From positions 1 through 61,117 of the IMG/VR virus record IMGVR_UViG_3300020469_005555: a stretch of DNA of 61,117 nt, one strand, 5' to 3'. A model generated the notes under the pieces. That model was not told the origin of the DNA. It searched no databases and saw nothing but the letters and a program-made list of their open reading frames with translations. Source of the DNA: a virus. The translations under genes and the position numbers were made by a program. Positions 39,006 through 58,872 of this stretch are shown here, piece after piece; the first letter of the stretch is position 1; each line of letters opens with the position of its first letter.

Positions 39006-40253
39006 CTAGACAATAGCTGCATGAATATTAGTAAATTTACTTATCAAACTTTTTCTTTTGCTCTCTACAATATTAATAAAATGGTCGGGTATGTAAAATT
39101 TTTGGTCGTTAAGATTGACGATTCTCATTTTTAATTTTAAACAGGCAATAAACCTAAAAAAGTAATCAATTCTTCTAGAATAATTTGTGTCACTCAATAA
39201 CTGCTCCGGAACATAAAAATTTATGCGATTCCCTGTGAACATTTTAAGCCTATTCTGTAACACATCAATTCTTACATCAGGCCTTGTTTCAGCTTCTTCA
39301 ATTCTTTTTTTCAGAAACTTTCTATGACTTTCTATCTTTGCTTTACTCGCGACAGGGTTAATTGCGATGTGATTTTTAAAAAAAGATATTTTCTTTCCAA
39401 AATCTAAGTCCTTGCTTACTTCTTGTGATATCGTTTGACCTAGGTCACTTGTTACTACACTTGAATCGTGTATTGCAGCAATGTCATTGAGTATATTTAA
39501 GGATGATTCATCATTAACGTTTAAACACACTGGTAAAACTCTAAATCTCCCCATATTATTATTCTTCAATATTGTCTGTTTTACTTCCTCAGACATTCCA
39601 AAACAAAACAACACATACGGTTCTTTTGTGTTGTTAGCTTTATATAATAAATGATGAATCTCACCAATCGATTCAATAATACCGTTTATAATAATGAATC
39701 TGTAGTTTTTAATATCTTGACCTTTGATTTTACTAAAAAAAGAAAAGTCATAATCAATATTAAAAATAAAGTCAGATAAACATTCTACTAGAAACGTGTC
39801 ACCGCGGTATTTTTCAATGTTAATACTTCTATTTAAATTTGTATTTGAAAAAAACCAATTTGCTATATTTTCAATCACATTTGAATTTAAAGAACTGATA
39901 AATTTATTCTCATCTTTTTTTGAAAAAATAAAACTCCCACCACTGATCTTTGTGTGTTTTATCTGAAATAATTTGTGAAGCATATAGTCCCCTAAGTAAG
40001 GATACATTTTTTCGCAATTATAGTATTCTTTAAGTATTATATTTTTTAAACACTCTTCCAGGCTGTTTTCTGGTATAATATTTAAGTAATTAAGTGCAGT
40101 ATCATTAATAACAACATCTTTATTATATAAAACACTTGATTTGTCAATTAAATTTAAGAAGTCGTCTTTCTGTTTTTTAAAAATACATGCAATGTCGTCA
40201 TTACCAATAAATACTTCTTTTTTATGAATCTCGCCAGAGGTTGTTACTTGCAT
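39006..40253 (-). CDS. Divergent GroEL-like chaperonin, lacking canonical ATPase motif
   Basis: 415 aa against about 545 for GroEL. From residue about 190 onward the sequence follows the apical and lower-intermediate domains of GroEL: a strand and helix equivalent to PVLEAVAKAGKPLLIIAED (here IHHLLYKANNTKEPYVLFCF), then LNDIAAIHDSSVVTSDLG, LDFGKKISFFKNHIAI, FLKKRIEEAETRPDVRIDVL and RLKMFTGNRINFYV. These align in order and spacing with GroEL's LQDIATLTGGTVISEEIG, LGQAKRVVINKD, QIRQQIEEATSDYDREKL and RVAKLAGGVAVI. The equatorial GDGTTTAT ATP motif is not recognisable (YLGDYMLHKL is in that region). It overlaps prkA by 32 bases, so it is translated with the kinase. Confidence 0.7.
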   Translation of the reverse strand: MQVTTSGEIHKKEVFIGNDDIACIFKKQKDDFLNLIDKSSVLYNKDVVINDTALNYLNIIPENSLEECLKNIILKEYYNCEKMYPYLGDYMLHKLFQIKHTKISGGSFIFSKKDENKFISSLNSNVIENIANWFFSNTNLNRSINIEKYRGDTFLVECLSDFIFNIDYDFSFFSKIKGQDIKNYRFIIINGIIESIGEIHHLLYKANNTKEPYVLFCFGMSEEVKQTILKNNNMGRFRVLPVCLNVNDESSLNILNDIAAIHDSSVVTSDLGQTISQEVSKDLDFGKKISFFKNHIAINPVASKAKIESHRKFLKKRIEEAETRPDVRIDVLQNRLKMFTGNRINFYVPEQLLSDTNYSRRIDYFFRFIACLKLKMRIVNLNDQKFYIPDHFINIVESKRKSLISKFTNIHAAIV

Positions 40254-42156
40254 AAGTTAATATCTCCTCAGCAGAACTTTCGTTATAACCATATTCTTCA
40301 ATTAAAGTACCAATCATATCTGTGTATTTCTTTTTCTGATCATCATCTCTTGACTTTGAACGTGTCACAATACGCGCTATATCTTTAACAGATGTAATTA
40401 GATACTGTTCAATTGCTTCTTTAAGTGGCCCATAAGACTTATAGTCTACTGTTTCACCTTTTCTCATTTTAGAAAACATATAAGCAGTTACATCGTTTCT
40501 AAATCCGTCTCTAGCAGATCCTGTAACACTGATCATTTCTTCTATTGTTCTCATAAATTTTTCGTCTGGATCGCGTTCTTCCCTAGTGATTTTATCCTTA
40601 ACTCTAGTCTTTGTTGTATAACACTCAGCATTATCTAAATAAGAATCAAATAACGATTGTGCTTGTTCTTCATAAGCAGTAATAAATGCTTTTGCTATTT
40701 CTGTTTCTAGAATTCTCAAATATTCTTCGCGAATAACTTTTTGTAGAATTTCAAGATATCTTGTCTTCGCGTCTTCGTCAATTATCTGTTCTTTGACTTG
40801 TTTAATTAGAGAGTCTACTACATTAATAGGCGTGATCATTTCGTTGTCAGAATCTGAAAGTGCTGAATCTAAAGCTTTCATAATAAATCTTGTGGATATG
40901 CCCTCCATCCCTTCATGCTTTGCTTCATCTTTAAGGTCTCTAATGTCAACCTTTTTAACTCTTCCCTTTTCAATAATTGCTTCACCATTGTATATCTTCA
41001 TTTTTGTCAACATGTCACACTTATTAGAAGGTTGGAGCCGGCTCATAACTGAAAACATTGAAGCTACTTTTAAAGTATGCGGGGCGATGTGTGCATTTCT
41101 AAAGTCTGACCTTTTTATCATTTTTTGATATATTTTCATTTCTTGATCTAACTCTAGCACATAAGGAACATTTATCTTAACAACCCTATCTAAAATTGCT
41201 TCATTAGTATGTTCAGATTTAAATCTATTCCATTCACTTTCGTTACAATGAGCGAGAATTACTCCGTCGAAAAAAACCATATCATGCTTTCCAGGCGTTG
41301 GAACACGTTTTTCTTGTGTTGCTGTTAGCATAGTGTGTAAAAATTCAATTTCGTTTTTAAACACTTCAACAAACTCAACAATACCCCTGTTACCTACGTT
41401 AAACGCACCGTTTAAGGAGAGTACGCGTGGGTCATCTTCAGGATAAAGATCTAGTTTACTAATGTCCTCAGTTCCAATTAATACAGAAGTATCCTGTGAA
41501 TTGGCATCCATAGGAGGAACTACAGCAATTCCTCTCCTACCCCTCTGAGAAAAAGTAGATTCAACAACTTTAAAATTCTCGTATTTACCTTCGTATTCAT
41601 TTAATAACTTCCATCTAGCAACTGGACTTAAGTCACCCTCTATTGTTACCCCTAAAATATCTTCCATGTCATTTCGTAAAGATCTAGGAATTAACTGCAG
41701 GGGTTCACCTCTCTGAGGATCTCCTTCTAGATGAAAGTATCTTTGGCCATCAAGCGCGCTTTTAATATGTTCTGTGAGTGCTGATTTTCCGGCGCCTACT
41801 GGGCCCATTAAAAGAAGAACTTGTCTACTTTCTTCACCTTTGTGTGCAGCTGACTTAAGAAATCTCATTAACTTATTAATTACCGATTCCATTCCAAAGA
41901 ATTCTTTCTTGAAGTAATCGTATGTCCTTATTTTATCACCATTAAAAATATCTCTATACACATCTGAGTCGACATCTACAGTATCGATACCATGACTACA
42001 AATTGTTTCATACAATCTTTTGTGCGCTAATTTTATTTTATCTGGATTATCTCTAATTAATTCTAAATACTCTATAAATGTACCTTCAAATTTTTCCTTC
42101 TTTTTTTTGTTTCTTTGATTCTGTATGAGTTTTAACAATTCATTTTTGCGTGCCAT
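40222..42156 (-). CDS. prkA: PrkA/YeaG-type AAA+ serine protein kinase
   Basis: 644 aa, full length. Signatures: the N-terminal FEGTFIEYLELIRDNP and FFKEFFGMES-type motif, the Walker A GPVGAGKS at about 118-125, then the C-terminal kinase-like region with YDNAECY-type and TTKTRVKDKITREERDPDE, GSARDGFRNDV. In E. coli and Bacillus this protein is a stress-, stationary-phase or sporulation-related kinase acting with YeaH and SpoVR/YcgB. All three are together here. PrkA runs directly into the chaperonin-like gene. Confidence 0.95.
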   Translation of the reverse strand: MARKNELLKLIQNQRNKKKKEKFEGTFIEYLELIRDNPDKIKLAHKRLYETICSHGIDTVDVDSDVYRDIFNGDKIRTYDYFKKEFFGMESVINKLMRFLKSAAHKGEESRQVLLLMGPVGAGKSALTEHIKSALDGQRYFHLEGDPQRGEPLQLIPRSLRNDMEDILGVTIEGDLSPVARWKLLNEYEGKYENFKVVESTFSQRGRRGIAVVPPMDANSQDTSVLIGTEDISKLDLYPEDDPRVLSLNGAFNVGNRGIVEFVEVFKNEIEFLHTMLTATQEKRVPTPGKHDMVFFDGVILAHCNESEWNRFKSEHTNEAILDRVVKINVPYVLELDQEMKIYQKMIKRSDFRNAHIAPHTLKVASMFSVMSRLQPSNKCDMLTKMKIYNGEAIIEKGRVKKVDIRDLKDEAKHEGMEGISTRFIMKALDSALSDSDNEMITPINVVDSLIKQVKEQIIDEDAKTRYLEILQKVIREEYLRILETEIAKAFITAYEEQAQSLFDSYLDNAECYTTKTRVKDKITREERDPDEKFMRTIEEMISVTGSARDGFRNDVTAYMFSKMRKGETVDYKSYGPLKEAIEQYLITSVKDIARIVTRSKSRDDDQKKKYTDMIGTLIEEYGYNESSAEEILTYASNNLWRDS

Positions 42157-42211
42157 AAGATATACCTCTCCTGTTTCATATATTAATTAATACGTTCTGG
42201 GTGTAAAATAC

Positions 42212-43540
42212 TTAAATTTCCCAAACTTCTTCTTCAATAATTGTAAAAAGTTTAACTTCTTTGTCCCAAACTTCTCTAATATGGTCCATTACTTTATCTG
42301 CATAGTCTAAGTCTAAGTCTCTTCCATCGTGTTCGTGTTTAAGAACTAATGCACCGTCACTATCTACTCTGTCGACGTATATGTGAGGTATCATATTAAT
42401 ACCGGTGTTTCTAATCATTTCATTCCTAACTGTCTTCCAATCGTCATGGTCTGTTACTTCAGAAACAACCGCACTGCCATCTTTTTTATTTTCATATGCG
42501 AAGAAATTTAATTCTCTAAAATCTTCTTCGTCTAATAACATTCGTAAAGCAGCTACGTCGTCGTGATTATCTCTTACTTCAAAACACTTTTCTAAACCGT
42601 GTTCTCTTTCCATTTTCTGAAAAATATAAAAACCTACATGATATGGGTTAACACCACCTAGATGTGGCCTGACGACTGCATTGTGCATTTTTAAAAACGG
42701 TAAGTGCATTGAATCTGGTAATTTTAAATCATGAAGTATTTTGTAATGCCAGAAAGATGCCCAACCTTCATTTAATATTTTTGTCTGTATTTGTGGCATA
42801 AAATACCAACTGTCTTGTTTTACAATTTCTAATAAGTCTAACTGCCAGTTTCTAAATTTGTCCGGATAATACTCTGTAAAAAAAGAAAGCATATCATGAT
42901 CAGGTTTTAGTAATCTTCTATTTTCTAATCCTTCATAGTCCAATAAAATACCCTTTTCTTTATATACATTGTATCTTCTAATCTCTCTGTCTTTTATTTC
43001 TTTACGTGTTTGTCTTGGTACACCGTATCGATTTGTCTGGTATTTTATCGCGTGGAGATTATCCAAAAAGGATTCTACTTTTTCTTGTCCTATTAGAGGA
43101 TCCTCAATATAACCTTGTATTCTCTTTTTTGCATTTCTCATTCGAGAAACGATATGTTCAGGATCAGTATCTTTAAAGCATCTATTGTTTTTAAAGAAAT
43201 CGCTATGTCCTACGCAATGTGCCATAATTAATATCTGCAAGTAAAGTGGATTTTGAAGCATTAAATACGCAATCGACGGGTTTGAATTTATGATCATCTC
43301 ATAAGGTAAACCACTTTGTCCCATATTGTAGTTTAAATGTGTTCTTTCAAAAGTTTTTCCGTAAGACCAATGATTGTAGTGGCTAGGCATTCCGTGATAT
43401 GACATATGTCCAATCATCTCATAATAGTCACAGATTTCATATGTAATTTCATGCCAGTCTAAACCATAGCCCTCTGCAATATTACATATTTTATCATCCC
43501 ACTCTTTTAAATCTTTTGTTGTATACTCAGATAAGCTCAT
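42212..43540 (-). CDS. spoVR: SpoVR/YcgB-family protein
   Basis: 442 aa. It has the SpoVR signature SLSEYTTKDLKEWD, then YEMIGHMSYHGMPSHYNHWS, YGKTFERTHL, and the repeated histidine-containing EGWASFWHYKIL. The exact function is unknown; SpoVR is needed for spore cortex formation in Bacillus, and YcgB/PrkA/YeaH form a stress module in enterics. I chose ATG 43540 because GGAGGT lies upstream; the longer frame from 43579 lies inside the yeaH coding sequence. The 3' end is 55 bases from prkA. Confidence 0.95.
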   Translation of the reverse strand: MSLSEYTTKDLKEWDDKICNIAEGYGLDWHEITYEICDYYEMIGHMSYHGMPSHYNHWSYGKTFERTHLNYNMGQSGLPYEMIINSNPSIAYLMLQNPLYLQILIMAHCVGHSDFFKNNRCFKDTDPEHIVSRMRNAKKRIQGYIEDPLIGQEKVESFLDNLHAIKYQTNRYGVPRQTRKEIKDREIRRYNVYKEKGILLDYEGLENRRLLKPDHDMLSFFTEYYPDKFRNWQLDLLEIVKQDSWYFMPQIQTKILNEGWASFWHYKILHDLKLPDSMHLPFLKMHNAVVRPHLGGVNPYHVGFYIFQKMEREHGLEKCFEVRDNHDDVAALRMLLDEEDFRELNFFAYENKKDGSAVVSEVTDHDDWKTVRNEMIRNTGINMIPHIYVDRVDSDGALVLKHEHDGRDLDLDYADKVMDHIREVWDKEVKLFTIIEEEVWEI

Positions 43541-44705
43541 ATTTACCTCCAAATAGTTTAGAAAACTGGGGCCATACATCTTTTTTATTTCTCAATCTTA
43601 CTATTTTAAATTTATCGCAAGTTAAAGGTTCAAAAACTTTAGCCATCTCTTCTCCCCACATTGATTCTTGTGAACCTTTAATCTGAATATAGCCAGCAAG
43701 TTGACTTATATTGATTAAATTTCTCATTTTATCTAGAGCTTTCTTGTTATCTTCGACCCAATTTTCTCCATCTGAACAGTGAAAAGTATAAATATTCCAA
43801 CTTGATGGGTTAAATCTCTCTTGTATTACTTGTTCAGCTTTTTCTAAACCTGATGAGATATGTGTTCCTCCCGATGAAGCTTTTTTAAAAAAGTCATCTT
43901 CATTTGTTTCTTTAGCTTCTGTTGTATGAGATATAAATACTAACTCTATGTTCTGGTACCTGTATCTAATAAACTGGTAAAGCAAAAAGAAAAAAGATCG
44001 TGCCAAGAATTTTTTGCGCTTTGTCATTGATCCAGAAACATCCATAATCATAAATATTACTGCATTAGTTATTGGTTTTTTAGTTACCTCAATGTGTTTA
44101 TACTTTAAGTCATCTTCATGAAAAGGAAATCTAGCTTCTTCATCATCTGGATTAAATGTTCCATTTTTAATTGATTGACTTTTTCTTCGTATCTTGTTTT
44201 TAAGCGTCTCTTTCTTTGATAATCTGGCATTAATACCTTTTGAACGATACCCTTTTCTTTTTATCCTCTCAGATGTCACAGTGTTATTCTGTTTCTTACT
44301 AAGTTCAGGTAGGTTTAAATCATCAAACAAGTACTTTGCTAACTCATCTAATGAAACCTCGACATCGTAGTATTCTTCTCCTGCTTCATTACCGGGTTTA
44401 TCTGGCTTACCTTTACCTTTACCTTTCTGATTAGGTTTTCTTACTACTTGACCTTTTTGTATATCTTGACCTTGTGCTGATCCAACTCCTTTAGTACCAT
44501 TACCCGTTCCATATATGAACTGGTATTCTTTGATACCTCTAACAGGTATTTTAATTTTCTTTTTACCATCTTGACCAATAATACTTTCTTCAGCGACAAT
44601 ATCATGTATGCCTTCTTTAATTGCTCTCTCAATCTTTTCTTTGTGCCTTCTTCTATCTGAAGCTGATCGATCAGCAACTGTTTTATGATTCTTAAATACT
44701 GACAT
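43527..44705 (-). CDS. yeaH: YeaH-family protein (DUF444), VWA-like metal-binding domain
   Basis: 392 aa. The C-terminal half has a VWA/MIDAS fold (MIMDVSGSMTKRKKF at about 220, FISHTTEAKETNEDDFF, ASSGGTHISSGLEKA, FHCSDGENW), and the N-terminal half is basic (DRSASDRRRHKEKIERAI). The first gene of the yeaH-spoVR-prkA operon. In E. coli it works with YeaG (PrkA). There is no intergenic gap; the frame overlaps spoVR's start by 14 bases. Confidence 0.95.
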   Translation of the reverse strand: MSVFKNHKTVADRSASDRRRHKEKIERAIKEGIHDIVAEESIIGQDGKKKIKIPVRGIKEYQFIYGTGNGTKGVGSAQGQDIQKGQVVRKPNQKGKGKGKPDKPGNEAGEEYYDVEVSLDELAKYLFDDLNLPELSKKQNNTVTSERIKRKGYRSKGINARLSKKETLKNKIRRKSQSIKNGTFNPDDEEARFPFHEDDLKYKHIEVTKKPITNAVIFMIMDVSGSMTKRKKFLARSFFFLLYQFIRYRYQNIELVFISHTTEAKETNEDDFFKKASSGGTHISSGLEKAEQVIQERFNPSSWNIYTFHCSDGENWVEDNKKALDKMRNLINISQLAGYIQIKGSQESMWGEEMAKVFEPLTCDKFKIVRLRNKKDVWPQFSKLFGGKYELI

Positions 44706-47340: not shown

Positions 47341-47373
47341 TTTTCGTATACTTAAAATATGAGGGTCTATTTT

Positions 47374-48162
47374 ATGGAAAAAATAAAGTCTTATATTATT
47401 TGGGGGTTATGTATGTTGTCTATAACAGGGTTTTGTTTTTTAATTTTAACACATTTTTTAAGTTGTTACGGAAAACAAAAAGAAGTAGAAGTAGCTAAAC
47501 CAGTTTTTGTTGAAGAACACACAGACAAATTATCAAACTTTGTTTTTCTCATAAAAGAATCCCATTCATTATGTATTGCTGATGAAGAATCAAGTTGCGA
47601 TGAAGAACCTGAAATGATTCCTGTTGCGTCAGCATCTGGTCTTATTTTATCGTCGTCTACTTCACATATATTTATTTTAACAGCAAACCACTTTTGCGAA
47701 ACATCAAACATTGAAAAAGTAATGGGTGAAATTAAAATTAGAGCATTTATAGGTGAATCTAAAAGATTAGTTGATGTTGTAACATACACTTCCGAAGCTG
47801 ATTTATGTCTACTACAAGGACTAAAATACAATGGAGAGGAATTTAAAACAACAATTCTAGCAAAAGAAATGCCTTTAATAGGTGAAAGAGTAATCAATGT
47901 TGCTGCACCTGATGGCATGGCGTCCCCTCACACACGTTTAATGTTTGATGGTATTTTTGCCGGTTGCGAGAATTTTCAATGCATTTACACAGTACCTGCG
48001 ACTTTTGGAAGCTCCGGCTCAGCAGTTTATAACGAAAAAGGTGAGCTAATATCAGTTTTAGTTGCAGCTGCCACTAATTTTGAAAATGTTTCAATGGGTC
48101 CTCACGTAATATTAATACAAACTTTAGTAGATACAGTTCAAAAAGAAATAGATATATATTAA
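47374..48162 (+). CDS. Membrane-anchored trypsin-like serine protease
   Basis: 262 aa. An N-terminal hydrophobic segment (WGLCMLSITGFCFLILTHFL) anchors or exports it. The catalytic triad is visible: His in LTANHFC, Asp in SEADLCLLQG, Ser in TFGSSGSAVY, with GERVINVAAPDG between. Cys pairs suggest disulfides outside the cytoplasm. I chose the second Met (47374), as GAGGG precedes it; an upstream ATG (47359) gives a 267-aa version. It could act on the cell envelope, as a lysis or superinfection factor, or on extracellular protein. Rare in phages. Confidence 0.75.
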   Translation: MEKIKSYIIWGLCMLSITGFCFLILTHFLSCYGKQKEVEVAKPVFVEEHTDKLSNFVFLIKESHSLCIADEESSCDEEPEMIPVASASGLILSSSTSHIFILTANHFCETSNIEKVMGEIKIRAFIGESKRLVDVVTYTSEADLCLLQGLKYNGEEFKTTILAKEMPLIGERVINVAAPDGMASPHTRLMFDGIFAGCENFQCIYTVPATFGSSGSAVYNEKGELISVLVAAATNFENVSMGPHVILIQTLVDTVQKEIDIY

Positions 48163-48175
48163 TAAAAGGTGTGGA

Positions 48176-48592
48176 ATGAAACTATATTTGGATGAGGGCT
48201 TAAAATATAGCCCAGAACAAATGAAATTAACCGGAGAGTTTATTCTCTTTTGCGCTGATAGTTTACCAATAGAAGGAGAATTTGAAGTACACCTTGTTAA
48301 TTCTCGGGAACCTCACGGAATATCAACTACAGCGCTTTATGAAGTTGGAAATAATTGTTGTAAAGTTTATTGTAAAAATAGAGCACTAGCTGACGTGTTG
48401 AGATCAGTTGCACATGAAATGACACATATGATGCAGGACCAGTTAGGTATTTTAACAGGTAATATTAGGGATGCAGGTGGATTTCATGAAGATCAAGCAA
48501 ATGCAAAAGCAGGTGAACTAATTAAATTGTTTGCTAAAAGTTCTCCTGAAAGAAAAATGATATACGAATCGCTCAAGAGATCGTTGGCGTAG
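48176..48592 (+). CDS. Putative zinc metallopeptidase-like protein (HEMTH)
   Basis: 138 aa. VAHEMTHMMQDQLG carries an HExxH zinc-binding pattern, and the downstream GFHEDQANAKAGELI has candidate third ligands (Glu/His). It has no obvious signal peptide. The family resembles small phage and bacterial peptidases of unknown substrate. It starts 14 bases after the serine protease gene on the same strand, with GGTG ribosome site. Its 3' end overlaps the C-terminus of the minus-strand modular protein (48573). Confidence 0.6.
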   Translation: MKLYLDEGLKYSPEQMKLTGEFILFCADSLPIEGEFEVHLVNSREPHGISTTALYEVGNNCCKVYCKNRALADVLRSVAHEMTHMMQDQLGILTGNIRDAGGFHEDQANAKAGELIKLFAKSSPERKMIYESLKRSLA

Positions 48593-50714
48593 AACCGCCC
48601 AAATATTTACTTAAAAATTTACCGTAACCAGTTGGTACGTGTATTCCATCACCTGATCTAGGTTTATAATTCTCAACAGACAAATCACTACAAGGATTTA
48701 TAAAATAAGTAGGTTGTTTAGTGTGTGCTTTAACGACAGGTTTAATAACCTCTTCGTTTCTTTTACAACGACTTTCTCTTTTCTTCAACCAGTATTTTTC
48801 ACTACTTTCTTCTTTAGAAACCATTGAATTATTTGAGCTTGGTTCGAACGCAGGTGGCCCACCAATCCAAACAATTGAGGCATTAGGCGCTAATTCATAA
48901 ATTTTATCTAATATCGATTTGCAATTTGATGCTTTGTTAGATGGATGACCACCTAGAGTTAGCAATACTAACTCTGCATCTTTAATGGAATTACTAAAAT
49001 TAGATTGATTTACAACAGTTCCTGCATGACCACCGCTGAGCATGCACACCCTTTCATTACCAATACTGAATCTATTTTTAATCCACTTACCTAAGCCACG
49101 GCCAACTTGACTGTCACCAATTAAAGCAACAGCTCCACTTGGAACGTTTAAAACACTTCTATTTACTTTTTCGCTACTAAATTTAGTTGATTTTTTATTT
49201 GATATACTTGTAGTGTCGTTACCAATTCCTACACCACCGAAAGAACCAAAACTAAAATCACGACCAGATTGTTCAGTTAATCCTCCGCCACCAGGTCCAA
49301 ATTCAAGAAAGTCTCTAGCACTCTTGTAACCATCTGCAGATTTGTGACCACCGTATTTTTTTGTGTCTGCTTTAGCTCTCGCAAAATCCCAACCAAGTTC
49401 TTCCATGTAATATCTACCGACATAAGCTCCGGTTCTATCAGCTCCGTGTGTGCAATGAATTAAAGTGTTACCTTTTTTTAGCATTTCTTTAGCTTTGTTA
49501 AATTTAGATCGATTACCCATATTGTCTTCACCGATAAAATTTTTAAAAACATTTAATCCTGCTTTTACAGCATTATTTGCAGCAGCTCTACCACCTTGAT
49601 CAGCATTCAATGAAATTACATTTTTAATTTCATATTCTTCACTTAATTCTTTCCAGAAGTCAACTGTTGGGTTTGTATGTTTTTTCTTGATTCCTGCGCG
49701 ATAATTGTTTTTGTTATCTAATATTTTATGAAAGTTAATTCCGCCCTTTATTCTTTCGCCCAACCTTCCTTTCCAAGAGTCCTTTCCACTCTTTGTGTTG
49801 CTTGAAAGTTCTGATTTTTTATTAATGCTATCAACACTTTCTCTAAAATATTTTGCGTACTCTTTTACGTGGTTTATATAATCAGTACTTCCTTGACCGT
49901 AATACATTGCAACAGCATCTGACCAGTTATTCTCGCCACTGTTAACTAATTTTTTAAACCTAGAATTAGATTTATGATTAACCCACTTAATAAACGCACG
50001 TTGAGAATAATCAATAGGGTTAGACTGAAAATCATTATATAATCTCACACCATCATTATTGTACTCACCTAACATGAAGTACCCTAATACTTGGTATAAA
50101 CCTATTGCTGCCCCTGTTATTGTTCCTGTTGGGCTAATTTTATACATTTTTTCAAATACAGGTTTATTCTTAGTGTGAGCATTGAAGTAAGAACCAGAAT
50201 ACTTTTTCCCCGACACAGACGGCTTTCTAGTCTCAACGCCCTCTTTTTTCCATGCATTAATAATTCGCTTTCTTTCTTCTTCGGTTATACCCACGTTAGT
50301 TGCGTATCTAGATTTAGGCACACTAAGTAAGTGTGGGTTTAAAGCCATCGCTTTTGCCTTACCGCCAGATTCTCTAGTTTGTATACCATATACAAAGTCA
50401 ATTCTTAAACCTGTTGCAGCAGCCATCTTTCTCACAGACTTAATATTAGCAGATCGCTTAGCACCTGAAGCTTTAAGTTTGTCGTTTAATGCAGTACCGT
50501 CAATATTTGCAAGATCGTCATTACTAATATCAATGTTTTTATCACTGGTTTTTTTGTCGTCTTTTTCATCATCGCTGTCACCGAAACCACTAGAACCAAT
50601 ACCTACCCCACCAAAAGATCCAAACTCTGCACTTCCACCTGCACGCTCTGATTGTTCTTTAATCAACGCGGTTCTAATTAATTCTCTTAATTCTTTCTCG
50701 TTGTGAATCATCAT
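48573..50714 (-). CDS. Modular virion protein: lytic transglycosylase-like, tyrosine-phosphatase-like and SGNH-hydrolase-like domains
   Basis: 713 aa with a shared N-terminal leader (MIHNEKELRELIRTALIKEQ). Residues about 100-285 resemble a lytic transglycosylase: catalytic Glu115 in TRESGGKAKAMALN, AAIGLYQVLG, DAVAMYYGQG. Residues about 325-470 contain the tyrosine/dual-specificity phosphatase loop IHCTHGADRTGAYVGRY (C421, R427). Residues about 525-713 look like an SGNH hydrolase: LIGDSQVGRG (Ser535), LLTLGGHPSN, and DGIHVPTGY (Asp689, His692). The segment FGSFGGVGIG is present twice, at 31-40 and 488-497, suggesting fusion of two leader-carrying proteins. Probably injected or attached to the virion. 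Confidence 0.75.
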   Translation of the reverse strand: MMIHNEKELRELIRTALIKEQSERAGGSAEFGSFGGVGIGSSGFGDSDDEKDDKKTSDKNIDISNDDLANIDGTALNDKLKASGAKRSANIKSVRKMAAATGLRIDFVYGIQTRESGGKAKAMALNPHLLSVPKSRYATNVGITEEERKRIINAWKKEGVETRKPSVSGKKYSGSYFNAHTKNKPVFEKMYKISPTGTITGAAIGLYQVLGYFMLGEYNNDGVRLYNDFQSNPIDYSQRAFIKWVNHKSNSRFKKLVNSGENNWSDAVAMYYGQGSTDYINHVKEYAKYFRESVDSINKKSELSSNTKSGKDSWKGRLGERIKGGINFHKILDNKNNYRAGIKKKHTNPTVDFWKELSEEYEIKNVISLNADQGGRAAANNAVKAGLNVFKNFIGEDNMGNRSKFNKAKEMLKKGNTLIHCTHGADRTGAYVGRYYMEELGWDFARAKADTKKYGGHKSADGYKSARDFLEFGPGGGGLTEQSGRDFSFGSFGGVGIGNDTTSISNKKSTKFSSEKVNRSVLNVPSGAVALIGDSQVGRGLGKWIKNRFSIGNERVCMLSGGHAGTVVNQSNFSNSIKDAELVLLTLGGHPSNKASNCKSILDKIYELAPNASIVWIGGPPAFEPSSNNSMVSKEESSEKYWLKKRESRCKRNEEVIKPVVKAHTKQPTYFINPCSDLSVENYKPRSGDGIHVPTGYGKFLSKYLGGSTPTIS

Positions 50715-50724
50715 ATCAATCCCC

Positions 50725-53142
50725 TTAAACGTTTTTAACGCCCCCTGGAACAGTAACTGTCATGAAAAACTTTCCGCCGCCTAGTCTTCCTTTATAGTTA
50801 ACTTCATCTTTGTCAATAGTATCACCTTGCGCTGCTAGTAAATCTTTAATACTTTTTAAAGTACCAAATTTGAAAGCAAGGAGCTCTGATAGTTTTTGTA
50901 CTTTACCTAAAAGAATCTGGCCGTTTACTTTTCCGTTCCTGTTAAAAGAAACTTTAAGAATAATGCCTTCATTGTCTGTACCTGAGAAGTTTGGCTTTTT
51001 AATACCTTCAATTATTTTAAGTGATACTGCTCTTGTTGTACCAGGATCAAAACCCATGTCTTCTAAAGTATTAACCCCAGTTTTTCCAGTCTCAACTCTA
51101 ATCTGGACACCTCTTTCACCAATTCCTGTATTTGTTGATTTAGGTGTACCACTTCCTAAAGTAGGATCTACTTCTTTTTGTGCACTCGTTTCTGTTTCAC
51201 CTTCACCACTCGGCGCTTTTTCACTATCAGCCAGTAATGTGCCAGGACCAACTGAACCAGGTAGCTGCTTACCATTACCAAACTCAACGTTACCATTATA
51301 CATATCTAAAATCATTGCTAGCGCACCAGAAGGTCTAGCAACATAACCAACATAATTAGGTCCGTTATCATCTTGAAGTGCTGATGCCATTTCACCCCAC
51401 ATGTGATGCCCGTCATTGTATCGGTCTTGATCCGGATCTTGACTAAAAACAGGATGATTATCAAAGGAGTGATTTACAACAACATCCCATAGTCTGTCTG
51501 TGTCTGCACCCCATCTACCGTCTTCTTCAGTTGGGCTTGCTGTTAAATTGTATTTTTGCAAATATCTATTCATAACTTTTTGCATAGATTCAACATCATT
51601 ATACCTTTTACCAGGTGTAACATCCCCGCCCCTTGTTGCTGGAATGTCATCTTCACCCTCAGTTGTCCCATCATCAATGTCACTACCGTCAATGTCACCA
51701 CCATCACTACCGGTCAACCAGTCGAAAAATTCACTAAGTTTTTTTCCTATGTAACTGAATAATCCTGATAATCCTCCTGTAAGGGCTGCGATTCCACCAA
51801 CAAACACTCCAGACCACCAAGAAAAAGCTTTATCTATTTTTTCTGCAGCCCAGTTATAAGAAGTTGTTAAACCGTATTTGATTGCTTCCCACGTTTTACT
51901 AGCAAATGCTTTAATCTTTGCAATAATCACGTCAAATAATGGAGGTTCTAATTCGTCAAAAAATTCATTACCAATTGCAGTAAAATCGCTCCCAAAAGTA
52001 CCATAACCAGATAAAATTGAAATATCTCGCCCCATCAAGTATGGGCCTAGTTTGTCATGAATATTTTGTTTAAAAGGTAATAGTTTTTTAAGAAAAGCAT
52101 CCTCAATTGCAAACTTATTCTTAACTAAATCGTTTATACCCTCTGTATTAAAGTTAGAAAATGAAACATCATATTTTTCACAGAGATAATATATGTTGCT
52201 TTGGTCGGTTTTGTTGTAACTTTCTGCCCTAAAATCATCAATTGTAACAACAAAATGATCAGACATCACAGCACCGTCCCATTTAAATTCATACGTTCCA
52301 GCATCAATAATCATCCCCACACGAATGTCTATTTGATGCAAGTCATAAACAGTCAAATTTGGATTGGTAAAAATTGAAGTTAAGGCCTTTTCTGGTGCAT
52401 TGTCATTAACATTACCAGATCCTGCACCATCCCTTGTGCCACTGTTGTGTAAAGTTCTAACAAATTCATCAGCAATTGCCTGTGGATCCACTTTTGGATT
52501 TTTAAAGGCAGCGGGAAATGTACCAGAGAAGTCAGCTTTTGGTATTCCTAAAAAATTCTCAGCTGAACCTTGTGCCTTTAAATCATCAATTGCTGCTGCT
52601 ATTTCCGTTTGATACTTATTAAGATCAGTTTCACCAGGTGGTATACCATAATCAGCTGTGAAAGTCGCTGGTAATTCTGGCATATTTATTTCACCACTTG
52701 ATATACCTCTTGCTAACTCATTTGCAAAATTAACAACTGGGTTGTTTACTGCATCTTTCAAGAATAGTTTTTCAGGTTCGGAAAAAATATTGGCCTCTGC
52801 AAGTTTATCTTGTAAGTAATTTCTAGCAGCATACACACCACCTGATAATAAAGCAATAGCACCGACGTAAACAGCAAAATGACCAAGTGGTAGCGTGAGT
52901 ATTGTATATGCACCATACCCACCAATTATGAGTGTAGCAATATCCACAACATATGGTAATATTTCATTAATTGCAGAGGGCGACTGAACACCTGCGATAG
53001 ACCTAGCTAGTGTTGCAAGCGTTCCGCCAATACCACTCTGCTCCATTAGAACTAGTTCTTGAACTTTTGTATGACGCGTCGCTTCATATACAATTAAGCG
53101 TCTTCTTATAACTTCTCTAACTTCGTTTTCATTTAAAAACAT
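50725..53142 (-). CDS. Large membrane-associated modular protein with the shared leader
   Basis: 805 aa. It starts with the leader (FLNENEVREVIRRRLIVYEA). Two hydrophobic stretches follow: about 60-110 (ILPYVVDIATLIIGGYGAYT, and further) and about 430-470 (WWSGVFVGGIAALTGGLSGL). Acidic Gly/Asp-rich linker DGGDIDGSDIDD precedes a C-terminal domain that may be peptidoglycan-binding-like (SMQKVMNRYLQKYNLTASPT, then GRWGADTDRLWD). No catalytic motif is recognised. It sits between two other leader proteins, suggesting a multi-protein injected complex. The start is the ATG at 53142; an upstream TTG is also in frame. Confidence 0.55.
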   Translation of the reverse strand: MFLNENEVREVIRRRLIVYEATRHTKVQELVLMEQSGIGGTLATLARSIAGVQSPSAINEILPYVVDIATLIIGGYGAYTILTLPLGHFAVYVGAIALLSGGVYAARNYLQDKLAEANIFSEPEKLFLKDAVNNPVVNFANELARGISSGEINMPELPATFTADYGIPPGETDLNKYQTEIAAAIDDLKAQGSAENFLGIPKADFSGTFPAAFKNPKVDPQAIADEFVRTLHNSGTRDGAGSGNVNDNAPEKALTSIFTNPNLTVYDLHQIDIRVGMIIDAGTYEFKWDGAVMSDHFVVTIDDFRAESYNKTDQSNIYYLCEKYDVSFSNFNTEGINDLVKNKFAIEDAFLKKLLPFKQNIHDKLGPYLMGRDISILSGYGTFGSDFTAIGNEFFDELEPPLFDVIIAKIKAFASKTWEAIKYGLTTSYNWAAEKIDKAFSWWSGVFVGGIAALTGGLSGLFSYIGKKLSEFFDWLTGSDGGDIDGSDIDDGTTEGEDDIPATRGGDVTPGKRYNDVESMQKVMNRYLQKYNLTASPTEEDGRWGADTDRLWDVVVNHSFDNHPVFSQDPDQDRYNDGHHMWGEMASALQDDNGPNYVGYVARPSGALAMILDMYNGNVEFGNGKQLPGSVGPGTLLADSEKAPSGEGETETSAQKEVDPTLGSGTPKSTNTGIGERGVQIRVETGKTGVNTLEDMGFDPGTTRAVSLKIIEGIKKPNFSGTDNEGIILKVSFNRNGKVNGQILLGKVQKLSELLAFKFGTLKSIKDLLAAQGDTIDKDEVNYKGRLGGGKFFMTVTVPGGVKNV

Positions 53143-53154
53143 GTACAACCCACT

Positions 53155-53925
53155 TTATTCTGATTTGGCGCCCATCATACTAGACAGTCCAGACATTGCC
53201 ATTTTACCTAAGCCACCAGCAGCGGCATCTTTTCCTAGCCCAAGAAGACTTCCAAATATTCCACCACCAGACTCACCAGATTCACCGCCACCAGAGAAAA
53301 GTCCTTTTATTGCATCCATAAGTTTGCCTTCACAAACAAATTCTCTCATCGGTTCTTGCAAGTAACCTTTTACTAAACCCACAACAACTTCGTTTATTGC
53401 TTCAGCAGGGACTGCTGAAAGTGAACTTTCTAAAGCACCTTGAACTTTATCAGCATTACCTGCATCTAAAAACTTGCCTGCAAGATAAGAAATTACTTTT
53501 GCACCACCAAGTTCAACAACGGTTTCTGTGATTGCTTCGGTTAACATTCCCATAATCTCATCACATTTGTTACTTCCAAAATACTTAGCTAGTTCTGTGT
53601 AATCAACAGCTTCTAAAACGTTTTGAAAAAACTTATGAAGAATAGGATCAGAAGTTTCGTTAACACCTAGAAAATTTAAAACTGCACTAGACAAATATCT
53701 TTTAATTAAATCAAAACCTGCGTCCATTAATCCTTCTTGAATTAATAGTTGCGCTAATCCTTCATTAATTTGAAACTGTGTCAAGCCTTTTTTGATTGCT
53801 TTAGATTCGAACAAAATCATTTTATTTTCAACAGAAGCAATATGTTCATGAAGCAATTCCTGTCTTTTGAATTCTTCCCTAATTAACTTTCTAATTTGTC
53901 GTCTTTGCGCATTACTTACTTGCAT
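53155..53925 (-). CDS. Helical protein with shared leader and Gly-rich C-terminus
   Basis: 256 aa. Leader MQVSNAQRRQIRKLIREEFK. The middle is helical with aliphatic repeats (QINEGLAQLLIQEGLMDAGF). The C-terminus is glycine/serine-rich (GGGESGESGGGIFGSLLGLG) with a hydrophobic tail. It could insert into membranes or assemble with the two larger leader proteins, which follow on the same strand. GGAGGC precedes the start by five bases. No family recognised. Confidence 0.6.
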   Translation of the reverse strand: MQVSNAQRRQIRKLIREEFKRQELLHEHIASVENKMILFESKAIKKGLTQFQINEGLAQLLIQEGLMDAGFDLIKRYLSSAVLNFLGVNETSDPILHKFFQNVLEAVDYTELAKYFGSNKCDEIMGMLTEAITETVVELGGAKVISYLAGKFLDAGNADKVQGALESSLSAVPAEAINEVVVGLVKGYLQEPMREFVCEGKLMDAIKGLFSGGGESGESGGGIFGSLLGLGKDAAAGGLGKMAMSGLSSMMGAKSE

Positions 53926-54368: not shown

Positions 54369-54824
54369 ATGTTATCAATCATACTAACATTTCTAATTAG
54401 TAACGCCAACGCTGATGAATTACATTATAACTGGGTTTGGGAAACCTCACCATTAATTGAAATATGCCCAGATTCTAGCATGACAGTCAATGAAGTTGCA
54501 AAAAGCATTGCTTACTGGGAACATCAAGGTGTTGAAGTTGATATTACAAGTATTAATTACGTGGAAAATTGTGACATTACAAAAAGAAATGTGATACAAA
54601 TAATGGGCGACAGAAACATTGATCACGCCAAAGAACACGCAAAAACAAAAGTTAAATGGTATTACTACGGTGAAAAAAATGAAAACACAATACTTTACAT
54701 TAAAGCAGCACAAGTTCAGATACCACAAAACAACAAAGCAATGGAAGACATTGTACTTCATGAAATTGGTCACGCACTAGGATTAGGACATTCACATCAT
54801 GATATAATGAAAGCAGTACACTAA
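54369..54824 (+). CDS. Secreted matrixin/metzincin-type zinc metalloprotease
   Basis: 151 aa. An N-terminal signal peptide (MLSIILTFLISNANA) is followed by a small domain ending in HEIGHALGLGH (three zinc His and catalytic Glu) and then SHHDIM, which provides the Met-turn. This is the compact catalytic core of metzincins, without a propeptide. It stands alone on the plus strand with its own promoter. A secreted protease from a phage could alter the host envelope or degrade neighbouring proteins. Short length (about 150) is unusual. Confidence 0.8.
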   Translation: MLSIILTFLISNANADELHYNWVWETSPLIEICPDSSMTVNEVAKSIAYWEHQGVEVDITSINYVENCDITKRNVIQIMGDRNIDHAKEHAKTKVKWYYYGEKNENTILYIKAAQVQIPQNNKAMEDIVLHEIGHALGLGHSHHDIMKAVH

Positions 54825-55731: not shown

Positions 55732-56013
55732 CTATTTGTTCATAATACAAACAATGTAAGTCGCACCATCGTGCTTCATCTGCTCAATCTTTTTACCAGA
55801 TTTTCCACCTTTCATCTTACATTTTTGCTCTGCTAGTCGTCGTGCCATATTAACATCATTCATTAATTTACCTACACCGACTGCTTTTTTACCGTCTTCA
55901 CCAAACTGCTCTTCAGCTTCTTTTTGCGCCGCTGCAGATTCGCCCTTCTTCTCAGATAAAATTCTTACTTCACGCAAAAGTAAACTTCTTAATTGTCTTC
56001 TATTTAATTTCAT
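55732..56013 (-). CDS. Small protein with shared N-terminal leader (MKLNRRQLR type)
   Basis: 93 aa. Leader MKLNRRQLRSLLLREVRILS, then an acidic linker and a helical C-terminal part with two Cys (QKCKMKGGKSGKK...YIVCIMNK). ATG 56013 has GGAG just upstream. It shares an upstream block with 58195-58482 and 58570-58872 (TATAACTATCT). No family recognised. Confidence 0.65.
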   Translation of the reverse strand: MKLNRRQLRSLLLREVRILSEKKGESAAAQKEAEEQFGEDGKKAVGVGKLMNDVNMARRLAEQKCKMKGGKSGKKIEQMKHDGATYIVCIMNK

Positions 56014-56031
56014 ATTAACTCCAGTATCCAT

Positions 56032-58157: not shown

Positions 58158-58199
58158 AAAATTTTCCGGAGAAATTTTTGTGAGAATTTAAAGCTTAAG
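58158..58199 (+). repeat. Repeat block R4 (CCGGAGAAATTTTTGTGAG)
   Basis: Shares CCGGAGAAATTTTTGTGAGAA with blocks at 58915-58947 and, in shorter form, at 58531-58555. It lies at the 3' end of the leader gene 58195-58482, upstream of the viperin promoter. Confidence 0.5.
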
Positions 58200-58482
58200 C
58201 TGTTCCACCGGTTCCGTCGTCAGCAAGACCCTCATACCATGCTCTCCAAGCTGGGTCTTTCTTTAAGAATTCACCCAACGACTTTAAAGCATCCTCACTT
58301 ACATCACTCAACACACCCGGACGATCTGGAGGTCCATTCCACCAGTCACCATCCAACTCACCAAATACACGACGCATCTCTTCTTCTCGATACATGTCGT
58401 AAGGTGGACCATCAGCTTCGCTTATAAGTGCACTTACCTCTTCTAATAACATGTTTTGTAATTGTCTTCTTGTTAATCTCAT
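58195..58482 (-). CDS. Small protein with shared N-terminal leader (MRLTRRQLQ type)
   Basis: 95 aa. Leader MRLTRRQLQNMLLEEVSALI, then an acidic domain with Trp residues (FGELDGDWWNGPPDRPG, EFLKKDPAWRAWYEGL). Ribosome site TTGGAG and start are clear. It differs from 58570-58872 beyond the leader. Unknown function. Confidence 0.7.
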   Translation of the reverse strand: MRLTRRQLQNMLLEEVSALISEADGPPYDMYREEEMRRVFGELDGDWWNGPPDRPGVLSDVSEDALKSLGEFLKKDPAWRAWYEGLADDGTGGTA

Positions 58483-58569: not shown

Positions 58570-58872
58570 TTATATGAGATTATATTTTTGTCGTAAAGCA
58601 ATCGATATGTAACTCTCAACATCGTATAACGCGTCCCTGAGTTCATCTGGGTTTAATGCATCTTGAAGTGTATATATCGCGCTTCTTGCATCTTGAGTCT
58701 CAGGACTGTCATCATTACCCACAACCATTAAGAGACCCTCGATAACTGCATCCGACGCTGGGAAGCTAGTTTGACTAGCGAGTGTATCTTGCTGTTTCAT
58801 ACCGCGGCCGTACGCAGCCGCTGACATTTCTTGCAAGATCATTTTTCTAATGTGTTTTCTGTTGAGTTTCAT
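58570..58872 (-). CDS. Small protein with shared N-terminal leader (MKLNRKHIR type)
   Basis: 100 aa. Leader MKLNRKHIRKMILQEMSAAA, then a helical acidic domain (SDAVIEGLLMVVGNDDSPET, DELRDALYDVESYISI). AGGAG precedes the ATG. It belongs to the same leader family as 55732-56013 and 58195-58482. Unknown function. Confidence 0.7.
   Translation of the reverse strand: MKLNRKHIRKMILQEMSAAAYGRGMKQQDTLASQTSFPASDAVIEGLLMVVGNDDSPETQDARSAIYTLQDALNPDELRDALYDVESYISIALRQKYNLI

Follow-up and report, generated by a model that had tools for sequence, protein, structure and literature searches.

Introduction

The internal head proteins of the T-even phages have a capsid targeting sequence as their sole shared feature, and one of them, IPI of T4, has a restriction enzyme of the host as its target (PMC3012670). 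Alt of T4 is cut by the prohead protease gp21 at ITE-6 and LTE-619 (PMC5694885). Phage polyvalent proteins, some with lysozyme and DD-peptidase domains, carry several enzyme domains per polypeptide and have been proposed to be delivered with the DNA (Iyer et al. 2017, PMC5512222). Enzymes of the Muramidase (DUF3380) family are known endolysins (PMC5674055), and the dual-specificity phosphatase TpbA is periplasmic (PMC4409338).

Here we analyse a 713-residue protein encoded by a stretch of 61,117 nt (the window) from the incomplete virus record IMGVR_UViG_3300020469_005555. Like the T4 internal head proteins and Alt, it has a short N-terminal leader of a kind found on otherwise unrelated proteins, together with [LI]xE sites, and relatives of the window phage encode an S77 prohead protease. 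It differs from them in that its cargo would be envelope-directed, with two cargo proteins per ORF, and in a leader sequence that is, by eye, distinct from that of T4. Polyvalent proteins resemble it in joining multiple enzyme domains, including wall hydrolases, in one chain, but the text of PMC5512222 does not contain the words phosphatase or SGNH, and processing here would be by a prohead protease. In the reading we prefer, to which we give a probability of about 0.5, the source virus is a large T4-related marine phage that packages the precursor in its head, cuts it into a lysozyme-phosphatase and an SGNH protein and ejects both into the host envelope, the locus being a slot for swappable wall enzymes.

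Architecture of the 713-residue protein

An earlier note on this DNA had placed catalytic-looking residues of three enzymes in one reading frame. Re-reading of the ORF at 48573-50714 (minus strand, ATG start, intact) confirmed that Glu115, H420-C421-x5-R427, Ser535, Asp689 and His692 are all present at the expected positions. Predicted folds, profiles and a leader HMM support the presence of three enzyme modules and a leader in the one protein. The main features are as follows.

48573..50714, minus strand: 713-residue precursor, with leader, putative lysozyme/lytic transglycosylase (LT), phosphatase, proposed internal LTE site and predicted SGNH module
50655..50714, minus strand: putative leader helix, residues 1-20 (MMIHNEKELRELIRTALIKE); leader HMM 19.7 bits, family also on neighbours and slot proteins
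50652..50663, minus strand: proposed prohead-protease site IKE20/Q (the slash marks the cut), from the motif
50595..50624, minus strand: first FGSFGGVGIG block, residues 31-40
49815..50459, minus strand: putative lysozyme/LT module, about residues 86-300
50370-50372, minus strand: Glu115 codon
50091-50102, minus strand: GLYQ (G205-L-Y-Q208)
49299..49781, minus strand: dual-specificity-type phosphatase module, residues 312-472, by Pfam DSPc and Foldseek (TpbA)
49434-49457, minus strand: HCTHGADR
49269..49280, minus strand: proposed internal site LTE481/Q in a glycine-rich linker, from the motif; the orthologue ends just before it
49221..49250, minus strand: second FGSFGGVGIG block, residues 489-498
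48600..49142, minus strand: predicted SGNH hydrolase module, residues 525-705, with Ser535, Asp689 and His692

The combination of modules, which the earlier note had called unusual, is both real and unusual: it would be a new architecture within a known kind, the virion-delivered multi-enzyme proteins. In tblastn searches of the phage collection neither the full-length protein nor any single module retrieved a useful homologue; the locus is present in a near-identical contig. Using the neighbouring DUF444 gene as bait, we recovered 33 loci on other contigs. One of these (G014) carries a syntenic orthologue of 426 aa, 39% identical, consisting of leader, LT and phosphatase and ending just ahead of the position where the window protein begins GPGGGGLTEQ. 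Mutated catalytic positions in homologues had been named as a possible objection; in this single full orthologue neither Glu115 nor GLYQ nor HCTHGADRTG is altered.

The three enzyme modules

Structure prediction by domain, which the earlier note had proposed, supported the phosphatase and SGNH folds. Over the LT module the AlphaFold2 (AF2) model was of low confidence, so that this assignment, which is moderately supported, rests on motifs and weak profiles. The Pfam Muramidase profile (PF11860) matched with an E value of 0.0012 and 19.7 bits, under its cut-off of 22.3. A two-sequence profile of the module matched endolysin 7q4s (0.011) and EmtA 6gi3 (0.66) in the PDB, and in the EmtA alignment Glu115 falls on the Glu of the ESGG motif. 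The orthologue retains E115-S116 as well as G205-L-Y-Q208. Because the score lies below the Pfam cut-off, we describe the module as probably working like a muramidase or LT and do not place it in PF11860. The weak profile match and the single Glu with a GLxQ motif are shared with Muramidase (PF11860/DUF3380) endolysins such as AP3gp15, from which the 713-residue protein differs in falling below the cut-off, bearing a leader and combining several enzymes.

The phosphatase assignment, an HCx5R loop in a predicted PTP fold, is firm. Pfam DSPc matched the domain alone at 1.9e-6, under its cut-off, and the window protein falls below all Pfam cut-offs; the orthologue exceeds that of the polymorphic-toxin family Tc-R-P (36.5 against 27 bits). 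In an AF2 model built from eight sequences, ten-residue blocks over residues 331-470 had pLDDT values of 58-92 and were mostly confident. The best Foldseek match of the model was TpbA (2.4e-4), and Siw14-type enzymes were also matched. HCTHGADRTG is invariant in all eight relatives, the orthologue and seven more distant phosphatases. Asp396 (GEDN) is a candidate general acid, in a loop that aligns with gaps and in which the Asp of the orthologue is shifted. Loop and fold are those of TpbA-type periplasmic dual-specificity phosphatases; here, by contrast, the enzyme follows a phage leader and a putative wall hydrolase in one chain, with no Sec-type signal segment apparent. A scan of genome contigs for the phosphatase returned only two bacterial phosphatases. 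Four loci (L068, L072, L075, L076) encode stand-alone phosphatases whose N-termini look, by eye, lipoprotein- or signal-like. A cytoplasmic phosphoprotein is not favoured as the host target of the module, since the cellular cousins found look exported or periplasmic.

The SGNH hydrolase assignment is likewise firm, by predicted fold rather than by sequence: no family was significant in sequence searches, with DUF459 at 0.056. A single-sequence AF2 model (mean pLDDT 63, pTM 0.63) gave EstL5 as its best Foldseek match (1.0e-5), and BT3161, sialate O-acetylesterase and PAF-acetylhydrolase were also matched, all four with probability 1.00; the peptidoglycan O-acetylesterase Ape1 (8gkd) had an E value of 0.026. 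Blocks I (GDSQ, Ser535), II (Gly in GGHAG) and V (DGIH, Asp689/His692) are present, and the block III GxN region reads GGHPSN, with the Asn off the canonical spacing. The module thus resembles EstL5, sialate O-acetylesterase and Ape1 in predicted fold and in the placement of Ser and Asp-His, and differs from them in its very low sequence identity. A degenerate SGNH motif search found the near-identical contig and two chance matches, a terminase-like ORF (L007) and a short ORF (L008). PF13472, run on 23 records, found no stand-alone SGNH gene, and this profile also misses the SGNH module of the window. Only one virus is known to carry the SGNH half, which is an added unit, since the orthologue stops just before the proposed internal LTE/Q site. 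O-acetyl groups on peptidoglycan hinder muramidases, and O-acetylated peptidoglycan is therefore a plausible substrate.

The leader and the repeated segment

The leader HMM matched about 30 proteins in a 236-kb relative (G011), in addition to neighbours in the window, and by analogy the leader may be a targeting sequence. Three more small leader-bearing proteins are encoded at 55732-56031, 58195-58482 and 58570-58872. No hydrophobic or Sec-type signal segment is apparent in the 713-residue protein.

The two copies of FGSFGGVGIG had been read as the trace of two fused leader proteins. Repeats as long as six residues arose in only 1.4% of 1000 shuffles of the protein. At the DNA level the copies match at 26 of 30 nt, and the four differences are without exception synonymous, which marks the repeat as an old duplication in which the peptide has been kept. 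As a DNA pattern it was found elsewhere only in the near-identical contig. The duplicated segment is longer than first reported, reading [I/L]-x-E-Q-S-x-R ... FGSFGGVGIG at both places, and [LI]xEQS occurs twice in the ORF against 0.007 expected from composition. There is no leader helix ahead of LTE481, so a full second leader was rejected, and the reading as two fused leader proteins has to be revised. What was duplicated is the proposed cleavage-site segment LTE/QSxR..FGSFGGVGIG, and the orthologue is without the SGNH half.

Proposed packaging and prohead-protease sites

Three points strengthen, although indirectly, the case for the 713-residue protein as a virion protein: the leader is found on about 30 proteins of one relative, the relatives encode a prohead protease, and the protein shows no hydrophobic signal segment. 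The T4 gp21-type protease profile (PF03420, S77) scored above its cut-off in all seven relative contigs longer than 110 kb. It was not found in the window or in seven contigs carrying the independent architecture described below or the phosphatase cousins, all of which are incomplete. Two neighbours upstream also bear the leader.

50725..53148, minus strand: n807, leader-bearing protein of 807 aa, with LME/Q at about 53038-53049
53155..53925, minus strand: n256, leader-bearing protein of 256 aa, with the [ILV]xE site INE55/G at about 53758-53769

In a comparison of nine n256 orthologues just three residues are invariant, and the Glu of [ILV]xE/(G or N) at the leader boundary is among them. From the leader HMM, PF03420, this Glu and the precedents of Alt and the T4 internal proteins, we infer packaging and cuts at IKE20/Q and LTE481/Q; the likely mature products are two proteins rather than one three-headed enzyme. 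The [LI]xE motif is short, with nine occurrences in the ORF, some of them inside domains. The idea that LxE directly follows the leader in every slot protein was rejected on comparison, as at least L010, L014 and L019 have no [LI]xE motif after the leader helix. In an n807-like protein (L040:3660-6020) an internal leader-like stretch is followed by a cleavage-like site (LTESRQVRLLLKRILMEQ) by eye, and L023:1563-4598 is similar, which hints that internal processing sites may recur.

A slot for exchanged wall enzymes

Gene order is kept in many relatives: n256, n807, the slot, a 138-aa peptidase-like protein, a trypsin-like protein, UvdE, a nucleotidyltransferase, a 297-aa protein, DUF444, SpoVR and PrkA. 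The slot holds VanY/M15 in L014, weakly in L021, and by eye in L019 and a second ORF of L010; DUF2272 in L010 and L025, and by eye in L020; and DUF2272 with glucosaminidase in L016. The slot protein of L040 (L040:6037-8106) again joins three modules behind a leader: M15, DUF2272 and a C-terminal part that looks like an alpha/beta-hydrolase and contains GWSRG. Four relatives, L012, L017, L018 and L023, have nothing in the slot. Nearly all wall enzymes in the slot of relatives bear the leader.

Of two plus-strand genes at 47359-48592, convergent with the 713-residue ORF and beside the slot in most relatives, one codes for a trypsin-like peptidase whose N-terminus is hydrophobic and the other for a small HEMTH protein. 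By eye, the small protein encoded at 54369-54824 shows a signal-like N-terminus and a HEIGHALGLGHS zinc-protease motif. The PrkA-like kinase, SpoVR-like and DUF444 genes at 40222-44705 form an operon-like block conserved here and in most of the 33 related contigs; Thermus phages have similar PrkA-type genes. A long run of glycan-type genes at 4059-31000, with glycosyltransferases (PHROGs) and, by eye, nucleotide-sugar and radical-SAM-looking proteins, suggests that the phage may build or remodel a surface glycan.

A second pairing of a lysozyme-like segment with a phosphatase

In another phage group (L069, L070, L071, L073) an N-terminal leader is followed by a lysozyme-like segment, recognised by eye, by PG_binding_1 (2.4e-9 to 1.8e-8) and by the same phosphatase as in the window. 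The leader, which in L071 and L073 reads INRVREIMGLPVIKEQ, ends in IKE/Q ahead of the lysozyme-like segment. A tail-sheath-like gene was seen by eye nearby in L069 and L071. Leader, lysozyme-like, PG-binding and phosphatase units thus appear to have been joined independently in unrelated marine phages. In a limited literature search we found no paper on a lysozyme-phosphatase virion protein.

Discussion

In the preferred reading the leader helix would target the precursor to the prohead core, where a gp21-type protease would remove it by cutting after IKE20 and would separate the LT-phosphatase from the SGNH esterase by cutting after LTE481, in the glycine-rich linker. Both mature proteins would then start with QSxR..FGSFGGVGIG. 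On infection they would enter the host envelope along with the DNA, where the LT module would open the peptidoglycan locally, the attached phosphatase would strip phosphate from an envelope substrate, and the released SGNH enzyme would de-acylate an envelope polymer, for example by removing O-acetyl groups that block a muramidase. Somewhat more tentatively, we suggest a head polyprotein, cut at its internal LTE into two separately ejected enzymes and encoded in a swappable slot, with the recurrence of the muramidase-phosphatase pair in unrelated phages pointing to a phosphorylated envelope target at the entry stage.

The protein might instead be delivered uncut, as a single polyvalent protein with three enzymes acting in the envelope at entry. 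Lysozyme and DD-peptidase domains occur in described polyvalent proteins (PMC5512222), LxE motifs are frequent, and lysozyme and phosphatase stay joined in the relatives; the precise repetition of the post-leader segment behind LTE, at the point where the orthologue ends, makes this the less probable course, though it is the strongest of the alternatives. A modular endolysin for late lysis, its leader having another role, is improbable. Muramidase, VanY, DUF2272 and glucosaminidase are indeed common wall-hydrolase domains, and Muramidase (DUF3380) endolysins are known (PMC5674055), but the leader is common to many non-lytic proteins, several relatives have an empty slot, and phosphatase and SGNH modules would be unexpected in an endolysin. 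Other candidates for lysis also lie elsewhere, in contigs that are mostly fragmentary: leaderless PG-binding/Amidase_2 proteins in G011 and G027, and an M15-like protein without this leader in G007.

We consider it less probable still that the phosphatase is a cytoplasmic effector of host takeover, acting on phosphoproteins or nucleotides, while the wall enzyme merely aids entry. Such a role would have a parallel in IPI (PMC3012670), and the phosphatase matches Tc-R-P and, by profile, RNA 5'-phosphatases. Against it, the phosphatase is fused to wall enzymes in two lineages, its stand-alone cousins look exported by eye, and its nearest structure, TpbA, is periplasmic (PMC4409338).

If head packaging and double cutting are correct, prohead proteases would release several effectors per chain besides trimming leaders, in the manner of eukaryotic-virus polyproteins. 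The recurrent pairing of a wall hydrolase with a phosphatase would point to an envelope phosphate of importance in phage entry, and the slot would be a natural series of exchanged wall enzymes in which to ask what wall chemistry limits entry.
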